Below the pieces are notes generated by a model. It was not told the origin of the DNA, did not search any database, and saw nothing but the letters and a program-made list of their open reading frames with translations. A stretch of DNA of 64,000 nt from Acidobacteriota bacterium (GTDB taxonomy: Bacteria; Acidobacteriota; Terriglobia; 2-12-FULL-54-10): contig SHUM01000001.1 of assembly GCA_009691245.1 (NCBI GenBank), positions 62,001 to 126,000 on the forward strand, in the 5' to 3' direction. The position numbers and the translations under genes are program-made. Positions 21,151-35,562 of this stretch are shown here, piece by piece. The stretch's first letter is position 1. Every line of letters begins with the position of its first letter.

Positions 21151-21244
21151 TGTGTTGCTCCGTATACCTCTGCGTCCTCTGTGGCTTAGTACGACCTCAA
21201 CCGCAGAGGTCGCAGAGGCACGCAGAGGTATGCCCGCAACACAC
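21151..21244. repeat. Family D inverted repeat (CTCTGCGTCCTCTGYGG)
   Basis: The left arm TGTGTTGC...ACCTCTGCGTCCTCTG (21151-21183) matches the reverse complement of the right arm (21200-21244) imperfectly, with small gaps. The same core builds the element found inside lolC (34855-34988). It lies upstream of both lysS and clpB. Confidence 0.85.
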
Positions 21245-33199: not shown

Positions 33200-33886
33200 C
33201 TAAGGGAATGTAACGGCCTCCAGCCGACCGGCGGTCAGCTTCCACGCCTGATCGCAACGGCGCGCGTATGCAAGGTTGTGAGTAACCAACAACGTGGTCA
33301 TCCCTTCGCTGCGGTGCAGATTCTCGATCAACTCCATCACCGCGCCGCCCGTACGCGCATCAAGATTGCCGGTGGGCTCATCGGCCAACAGCAATTTCGG
33401 CTGACGGGCCAAGGCGCGAGCCAGCGACACGCGCTGTTGCTCGCCGCCCGAGAGTTCCCCGGCGCGATGTCCGCCGCGATCCGTAAGTCCTACTTGTTCA
33501 AGAAGATGATTGGCGCGCGCGGCGGCCTCACTGTGGTCCTGACCGTTAATCAGCAGAGGCATCATCACGTTTTCTCGCGCCGTAAACTCCGGCAAAAGGC
33601 AGTGCATTTGCCACACAAAACCAATATCTCGGTTCCGAAACTGACTGCGCTCGGCTTCACTGAGCTGCGAAAGCGCTCTACCTTCGAAGTATATCTCACC
33701 GCTCGAAGCCTTGTCCAGCGCGCCTAAAATATGCAGCAGAGTACTCTTTCCGCTACCCGATTCGCCCACCACGGCCATCATCTGGCCGCTATCGAGGGAG
33801 ATATTCATTTGGTCCAACACTACTAGATCGGCATTTCCCGAGCGAAACTTCTTAGTAAGTTTTTCCGTGCGTAGCAAGTTCGGCAC
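33200..33886 (-). CDS. lolD: Lipoprotein-releasing ABC transporter ATP-binding protein LolD
   Basis: LolD is the ATPase of LolCDE, which extracts lipoproteins from the inner membrane for transfer to the outer membrane. It has 228 residues with Walker A GESGSGKS, Q-loop WQMHCLLPEFTA, signature LSGGEQQRVSLARAL, Walker B LLLADEPTGNLD and H-loop VTHN. The Q-loop QMHCLLPEF and the DEPTGNLDARTG segment match LolD/MacB-type ATPases. It lies about 157 bases downstream of lolC, with a family A repeat between them. Confidence 0.93.
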   Translation of the reverse strand: MPNLLRTEKLTKKFRSGNADLVVLDQMNISLDSGQMMAVVGESGSGKSTLLHILGALDKASSGEIYFEGRALSQLSEAERSQFRNRDIGFVWQMHCLLPEFTARENVMMPLLINGQDHSEAAARANHLLEQVGLTDRGGHRAGELSGGEQQRVSLARALARQPKLLLADEPTGNLDARTGGAVMELIENLHRSEGMTTLLVTHNLAYARRCDQAWKLTAGRLEAVTFP

Positions 33887-34043: not shown

Positions 34044-35441
34044 TCACTCGTAGCGCAGCGCCTCGGCCGGCTCGATCTGCGTCGCCGCCCGCGCGGGATA
34101 GAGTGTTGCCAGATAGCTAATGGCCACGGCCACCGCCGCCACCCATACGCCATCGATCCAGCGCGCATCAAACGGCACATAGCTGATGGCATACACGTCG
34201 GCGTCCAGCTTCAGGATGTGATAGCGCGCGCCGAGCCACGAGACCAGATATCCGCCCACCAATCCCAACGCCGTGCCCGCCGCGCCAATCATCACGCCCT
34301 GCAACTGAAAGATGCGGCGCACCTGCGCAGGCCGCGCGCCCATCGACATCAGCACAGCGATGTCGCGGTACTTCTCCATGACCATCATGATCAGCGAGAT
34401 CAGAATGTTCAGCGCGGCCACCAGCACGATCAGAGAAATGATGATGACGGTAACGGTCTTCTCCAGGTTCAGCGCGCTGAACAGCGCGCGGTTCTGCTCG
34501 ATCCAGTGCGTCGAGCCGTAGTCCGCTCCCGCTCCACTCTGATTGGCCTGAGTCGCTAGTTCATCGGCCATGCGCGGCGCCTGATAGAGGTCGGTCAGCC
34601 GGAACTCGATCACCGAGACCACGTCGCCGAGCCCCAACATCGACTGCGCCGCGCCCAGCGAAGTGAACGCCCACATCGAATCGAAATCGTAGAAGCCCGA
34701 ATCAAACACGCCGACCACTTTGAAGTTGCGATAGCGCGGCACCATGCCAAACGGAGTGAGGTGCCCCTGCGGGCTGGTCAGCAAAATGGTGTCGCCCACA
34801 TGCGCGCCGAGCGAGTCGGCCATGACTTTGCCTATCACCACCGGCGGCGGAAGATTAACCGCAGAGGACGCAGAGGCTCCTGAGGAAAAATCGGAGGCAG
34901 GAGCAGCAGAGGCATCTGGCGCGCTGCTGCGGGATTTTGCATTTTCTTTTCCCGCCCCCTGCGTTCCCTCTGCGTCCTCTGCGGTTAAATTGTTTTGCTT
35001 TGCACTGCGCAGTTGATCGAACGACCCTTCCTTCACGCTGCCCAGCAGATTGCCGACGCGCAGCTCGGCGTCCACGTCCACACCCTTGAGCACCATCTGA
35101 CTGGACCGCTGCGCGTGCGAGGCCAGCAACGTCCCATAGAGCGCCGGTGCCGCCGCAGCCACACCCGGCGCCGACTGCAACTTACCAACCAACTCGCGCC
35201 AATTCTCAATGCCCTCGCCATCCTTGCGCTGCACGTTGACGTGCGCGGTGGCCCCCAGGAGCCGCTCCTGCATGTCGCGCCGCAACCCATTGTTGACGGC
35301 CAGCGCAACAATCAGCGACATCACGCCCGCCGCGATGCCCAGCACCGACAGCGCCGTGATGACCGAGATCACCGCAATCTTGCGCCGCGCCCGCAAGTAC
35401 CGCACCGCAATGAATGTCTCGAATTTCAATCCGCCGGTCAT
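34044..35441 (-). CDS. lolC: Lipoprotein-releasing ABC transporter permease LolC/LolE, with in-frame repeat insertion
   Basis: This is the membrane subunit of LolCDE, about 465 residues. TM1 is KIAVISVITALSVLGIAAGVMSLIVALAV (about 15-45), followed by a MacB-type periplasmic domain and the FtsX domain with three TM segments (VTVIIISLIVLVAALNILIS, MIGAAGTALGLVGGYLVSWL, GVWVAAVAVAISYLATLYPA). The C-terminus is the typical AATQIEPAEALRYE. Between the periplasmic beta-domain and PPPVVIGKVMADSLG lies a low-complexity stretch of about 45 residues (LTAEDAEGTQGAGKENA...ASSAVN), encoded by a family D palindromic repeat (34855-34988). The frame survives the insertion. I chose the ATG at 35441 (MTGGLKFETFIAVRYL); 35459 is an alternative. 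Confidence 0.93.
   Translation of the reverse strand: MTGGLKFETFIAVRYLRARRKIAVISVITALSVLGIAAGVMSLIVALAVNNGLRRDMQERLLGATAHVNVQRKDGEGIENWRELVGKLQSAPGVAAAAPALYGTLLASHAQRSSQMVLKGVDVDAELRVGNLLGSVKEGSFDQLRSAKQNNLTAEDAEGTQGAGKENAKSRSSAPDASAAPASDFSSGASASSAVNLPPPVVIGKVMADSLGAHVGDTILLTSPQGHLTPFGMVPRYRNFKVVGVFDSGFYDFDSMWAFTSLGAAQSMLGLGDVVSVIEFRLTDLYQAPRMADELATQANQSGAGADYGSTHWIEQNRALFSALNLEKTVTVIIISLIVLVAALNILISLIMMVMEKYRDIAVLMSMGARPAQVRRIFQLQGVMIGAAGTALGLVGGYLVSWLGARYHILKLDADVYAISYVPFDARWIDGVWVAAVAVAISYLATLYPARAATQIEPAEALRYE
34855..34988. repeat. Family D palindromic element inserted inside lolC
   Basis: Perfect 22-base arms (34855-34876 and 34967-34988; TTAACCGCAGAGGACGCAGA... and its reverse complement) flank a 90-base interior. 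On the lolC strand the element is open in the lolC frame and contributes the linker of about 45 residues, starting LTAEDAE and ending SSAVN. The same core is intergenic at 21151-21244. Confidence 0.93.
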
Positions 35442-35470: not shown

Positions 35471-35562
35471 GGTAGCCACGGTGAGTGGTTTTCTCGCCGT
35501 GGGCTTCGTGTTCAATCGTCGAGGAAAGGCCCACGGCGAGAAAACCACTCACCGTGGCTACC
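35471..35562. repeat. Family F perfect 34-bp inverted repeat upstream of lolC
   Basis: Arms 35471-35504 and 35529-35562 (GGTAGCCACGGTGAGTGGTT... and complement) match at all 34 positions, with a 24-base loop. It lies 30 bases upstream of the preferred lolC start. I saw no second copy in the window. Confidence 0.95.

Follow-up and report, generated by a model that had tools for sequence, protein, structure and literature searches.

An in-frame palindromic repeat in lolC of an Acidobacteriota bacterium has ends matching the arms around GxxExxY genes

Palindromes carried in frame inside protein-coding genes are known from Rickettsia and Wolbachia, whose palindromic elements (RPE and WPE; 100–150 bp) lie within ORFs, leave the frame unbroken, and are shared between orthologous loci (PMC3767692). 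Two other described systems place repeats in genes in different ways. The intervening sequences (IVS) of 23S rRNA (S23p, PF05635) hold a small ORF bounded by terminal inverted repeats and are selfish residents of a functional gene (PMC4990558), and copies of REP sequences, the short dispersed hairpins of REP/REPIN systems with RAYT, have been reported within genes from several species (PMC3733652).

The window analyzed here is a 64,000-nt stretch of an Acidobacteriota bacterium (GenBank GCA_009691245.1, contig SHUM01000001.1, positions 62,001–126,000 of the forward strand), whose genome we refer to as G000, and which we compared with five other genera of the same family (G001–G005) and a congener (G006). 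Like RPE and WPE, the element in the lolC gene of this window is a dispersed palindrome carried in frame, with genic and intergenic copies and an empty site in relatives; unlike them, it sits in another lineage and has other arms, which are common to more than ten phyla and to GxxExxY genes. The likeness to Rickettsia palindromic elements suggested in the original prediction therefore appears to hold as an analogy in the way of working, with no homology claimed, and does not extend to membership, given that the arms point to GxxExxY-associated palindromes. The features concerned are as follows.

33200–33886, minus strand: LolD-like ABC ATPase downstream of lolC (ORF and ABC-type sequence read directly)
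34044–35441, minus strand: lolC, a LolC/LolE-type (LolF-like) lipoprotein-releasing permease of 465 aa with an ATG start (NCBIfam TIGR02212 and Pfam matches)
34855–34988, minus strand: inserted palindromic element, 22-nt arms and 90-nt interior, residues 152–196 (LTAEDAEG...SASSAVN), 45 codons absent in five sister genera
34967–34988, minus strand: 5′ arm (coding strand) TTAACCGCAGAGGACGCAGAGG, encoding LTAEDAE; the arm of the congener is identical, with 0 nonsynonymous changes
34855–34876, minus strand: 3′ arm (coding strand) CCTCTGCGTCCTCTGCGGTTAA, encoding SASSAV; the arm of the congener has decayed
21164–21231, no strand assigned: intergenic copy of the same core, arms inward, short-loop hairpin (core matches in the window)

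The lipoprotein exporter served by lolC is normally essential. The NCBIfam model TIGR02212 (lolCE) matches the product at 3.3e-99 in two stretches with the insert between them, and the Pfam domains are MacB_PCD and FtsX. Given that the gene is the single LolC/E-type match below 1e-30 in the genome and that the nearest solved structures are LolF (9w37) and LolE (7arh), a LolF-like homodimer is likely. An AlphaFold prediction from a 2-row alignment gave a mean pLDDT of 36 and an unusable model, and a search of viral contigs for LolC homologues to deepen the alignment returned none. Just upstream of lolC lies a separate, perfect inverted repeat of 34 nt with a 24-nt loop (GGTAGCCACGGTGAGTGGTTTTCTCGCCGTGGGC; window 35471–35562), at least one arm of which is also found upstream of the congener lolC, at a contig edge.

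The predicted palindrome, with 22-nt arms, a 90-nt interior, and an open frame, was borne out: the arms are complementary at 22 of 22 positions (34855–34876 against 34967–34988) with 90 nt between them, and the minus-strand frame of the lolC ORF (34044–35441) runs uninterrupted across the element. Its arms point outward (TTAACC..GAGG - interior - CCTC..GGTTAA), and an Rfam search of the window matched no family.

The predicted linker of about 45 residues also agrees with the relatives, whose loop is shorter by exactly that number. In an alignment of seven genomes of the family, lolC of G001–G005 lacks exactly 45 codons at the insert position, and the loop segment EGS..ADSLG is a constant 30 residues in these five genera, 75 in G000, and 67 in the congener; the other class members aligned also lack the element. 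An insert is present at the same position in the congener, the independently assembled MAG Ca. Sulfopaludibacter sp. SbA3 isolate TH-08apr19-221 (G006:C22), where the left arm is identical, the right arm decayed, and the interior 8 codons shorter and stop-free. With the site empty in five genera and an orthologous insert in one congener, the comparison that the original prediction had called for upholds its claim that the insertion postdates the gene. Judged from these alignments, the insertion is a single event in the ancestor of the genus, and the suspicion that an assembly artefact had placed the repeat fails, because the separate congener MAG carries it at this position too.

No relative has the same linker without the palindrome, the finding that by the original prediction would have spoken against it; unrelated, non-palindromic linkers do occur, the loop ranging from 27 to 64 residues elsewhere in the class. 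Since class members carry such linkers in the same loop, the alignments indicate that the insertion site is a permissive loop and is not uniquely disturbed. The same range of lengths in palindrome-free class members is what would lend weight to there having been no insertion at all, only ordinary low-complexity growth of a variable loop that resembles the repeat by accident. We give this next to no probability: the loop segment is constant in the sister genera, and the arms, matching at every position, are those of a genome-wide and cross-phylum repeat for which the reversed control gave zero sites in G000. The identity of the arms refutes ordinary loop expansion.

Between G000 and the congener, dN/dS is ~0.49 in the insert (0.35/0.71; 37 codons compared) and ~0.10 in the remainder of lolC (0.034/0.32). 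The RNA hairpin of the element is strong in the window genome (−83 kcal/mol, z −5.4) and decayed in the congener (z −1.4). With the reading frame kept and the hairpin lost, the comparison favors translated cargo over an RNA-level function, and the insert would thus be tolerated cargo in a naturally length-variable loop, relaxed yet open, with indels in whole codons. Were the arms instead to pair in the mRNA so that RNase III removed the insert, the element would resemble the IVS of Coxiella, where terminal inverted repeats form a 28-bp stem and RNase III excises the insert (PMC4990558). The perfect 22-bp stem and its folding energy would suit such a role, and in this phylum palindromes likewise border genes for the IVS protein (PF05635); however, cut mRNA is not rejoined, so the message would be destroyed, and codon-multiple indels keep the frame while the congener stem decays. 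This explanation is extremely unlikely. The lolC element shares with 23S rRNA intervening sequences its terminal inverted repeats inside a functional gene but differs in its arms, in the occurrence of the repeat in protein genes and intergenic sequence, in the lack of an S23p ORF in the lolC copy, and in showing no sign of excision. As a carrier of the lolC-type arm, PF05635 was rejected, with the arm at 0 complete PF05635 loci. These loci (L298–L309) hold genes for four-helix, IVS-type proteins between inverted arms whose short periodic units are different ones, such as CAGTNGT and ACTGGTT, in parallel to the GxxExxY arms described below.

Within the window, the 16-mer core of the arm occurs in both lolC arms, at 21167–21182, and at 21203–21218, and at up to 3 mismatches it gives 5 matches against 1.2 expected. 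The original prediction had linked the element to an intergenic palindrome at 21151–21244; the core is indeed shared, but the arrangement differs, the arms facing inward (CCTCTGCG..GGTT-n12-AACC..GAGG) rather than outward as in lolC. Arm pairs thus come in both orientations, outward (lolC) and inward (21164–21231), and the closest sibling in G000 with the lolC arrangement is C15:39440–39560, whose interior likewise begins AACGCAGGG..AAGAAAA. The suggested genome search showed a dispersed repeat: a 20-mer of the arm has 33 sites in G000 at up to 3 mismatches (reversed control, 0), with the copies in lolC, a DUF255 gene, and MoaDE genic and the others intergenic. Among the relatives, the congener has 18 arm sites, G001 has 28, and the remaining four family members have 1–7.

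Beyond the family, a degenerate 22-mer was found exactly in 11 of the 396 genomes of a sample of the phylum (reversed control, 0), and the degenerate arm occurs in 68 viral-contig stretches. The exact 22-mer arm of lolC occurs across more than ten phyla and also in a single archaeal MAG, the taxa being Cyanobacteria, Acidobacteriota, Verrucomicrobia, Planctomycetes, Chloroflexi, Gammaproteobacteria, Spirochaetes, Bacteroidetes, Bipolaricaulota, Nitrospiria, Firmicutes (Sporomusa), Synergistetes (Acetomicrobium), and the Thorarchaeota MAG, a list in which single cases may be MAG binning errors. The arm is periodic, with units of 9–10 nt, and part of the sharing across phyla could for this reason have come from convergence or from growth by slippage. 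A literature search for the repeat sequence returned nothing relevant.

Two known kinds of mobile element could in principle account for such a dispersed repeat. One is an element of the REP/REPIN type that would owe its movement to a RAYT (Y1 transposase) and its in-frame position to chance. G000 does contain six Y1_Tnp matches, REPs inside genes are on record in several species (PMC3733652), and the repeat resembles REP/REPIN in being a short dispersed hairpin that is occasionally genic. Yet the lolC-type arm was present in the retrieved flanks of 0 of the 6 RAYT loci of G000; five of the six have inverted repeats of their own, at least two with GTAG beside the palindrome, and the base of the lolC arm has neither a GTAG nor a CGTC tag. 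Because the RAYT loci carry other repeats, and none in G000 is flanked by AACCGCAGAGG arms, RAYT as the mover is largely refuted, and the lolC-type repeat, which differs from REP/REPIN in lacking both the tag and a linkage to RAYT, is very unlikely to be of this kind. The other is a MITE derived from an IS with a DDE transposase, for which the terminal inverted repeats, the size of ~134 bp, and the dispersed non-coding copies would be typical. We regard it as unlikely: target-site duplications were seen at 13 of 63 sites against ~10 in shuffles, none above chance, an IS with such termini was not met in passing, and the interiors between the periodic arms vary in length, some having only a few bases and others several hundred.

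The preferred source is suggested by the genes that lie between such arms. Inverted arms flank 31 of 34 GxxExxY (PDDEXK_3) loci, compared to 2 of 300 random intervals (flanking arms called at a score of at least 14; shuffle maximum, 11), and the lolC-type arm core is present on both sides at 20 of these 34 loci, compared to 0 of 2000 random intervals and 0 complete PF05635 loci; the 34 include L357 and L365, two halves of one frame-broken gene. Five outward-arm elements with interiors of 417–480 nt each enclose one GxxExxY gene, among them one on a Microcoleus and one on a Verrucomicrobia contig. In G000 itself, the sole GxxExxY gene (C28:16357–16700, L315) is split over two frames, and its arms are a GCCACGGAGGCACAGAGG variant, related to the lolC arm but not identical to it.

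The lolC element fits the arm type of the GxxExxY loci (TIGR04256/PF13366 PDDEXK_3), being outward and of the form ACC-RC-RGAG with TTAACC/CACC ends, but differs in lacking a separate ORF: no GxxExxY ORF lies between the arms, and the 90-nt interior is read solely as lolC. As lolC-type arms stand on both sides of many GxxExxY genes, the insert looks like a GxxExxY element in miniature, devoid of the ORF, and at most a miniature derivative. The match between the ends of the repeat and the arms of these little-studied, nuclease-like genes suggests the kind of element from which it was derived. A description of this association was not found in a literature search that left out most subscription journals.

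From these observations, we propose that a non-autonomous palindromic element with ACC-RC-RGAG arms, as found around GxxExxY/PDDEXK_3 genes, entered lolC in the ancestor of the genus and landed in the length-variable periplasmic loop ahead of the PPPVVIGK strand. Both arms offer open, hydrophilic frames (LTAEDAE, SASSAV) and the element length suits the reading frame, so that the element would be translated as a linker of ~45 residues, rich in Ser, Ala, and Glu, probably disordered, presumably at the protein surface, and tolerated by the transporter. We consider this account as a whole probable. Because target duplication was not found, the mechanism of movement stays a matter of inference, the mover being perhaps the GxxExxY nuclease or else a host factor that targets the hairpin.

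In-frame palindromes being known from Rickettsia and Wolbachia, lolC adds a clear, polarized case outside both, for which empty sites as well as a congener are available; the repeat is common to several phyla, and the host gene belongs to a lipoprotein exporter. The link through the arms names a testable candidate mover, the GxxExxY protein, for a repeat without one in the literature searched, and offers a possible role for a family named merely after a sequence motif.

In-frame copies also occur elsewhere. Over 191 sites, 31 overlaps with ORFs were counted, many probably in spurious frames; the copies cited here have Pfam support. In G000, these are a copy in a DUF255/thioredoxin-like protein (LTAEDAEGTE) and one in the interdomain linker of a MoaD-MoaE protein (LTTEGAE), both in variable linkers, with a clean empty site shown for lolC alone. 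Outside G000, in-frame copies are carried by a Crp/sigma-54-domain protein of cyanobacteria (L163, L172) and by a phage gene of the PD-(D/E)XK/DUF2800 type (L291), and a Plectonema protein (L184) has one between its domains; two more G000 copies are at probable N-termini (C10, C47). About evenly balanced, in our estimation, is the broader reading that these belong to a family of palindromic mobile elements that crosses phyla, in which full-length members have arms of 9–10-nt periodicity on either side of a gene for a GxxExxY PD-(D/E)XK-like protein, and ORF-less miniatures have spread into genes and repeatedly been domesticated in frame as linkers; the domesticated linkers would be those in lolC, DUF255, MoaD-MoaE, the cyanobacterial Crp/sigma-54-domain protein, and the phage nuclease gene.

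Some minor observations concern these copies. Wherever a family member gave a match, MoaD and MoaE are joined in one protein (L034, L332; in G000, C15:49774–50526), and in the genus the repeat lies in the linker that comes shortly past the MoaD Gly-Gly. Four phage contigs (L231, L242, L277, L291) carry the repeat in frame as LTTEDTE; phages could therefore spread it. Finally, three near-identical segments of G000 (C7 near 72950 and the starts of C29 and C32; L025, L030, L031) have the arm inside a gene apparently for a secreted protein, where an in-frame TGA follows soon after the arm, and as two of them are at contig ends, the repeat may break assemblies.
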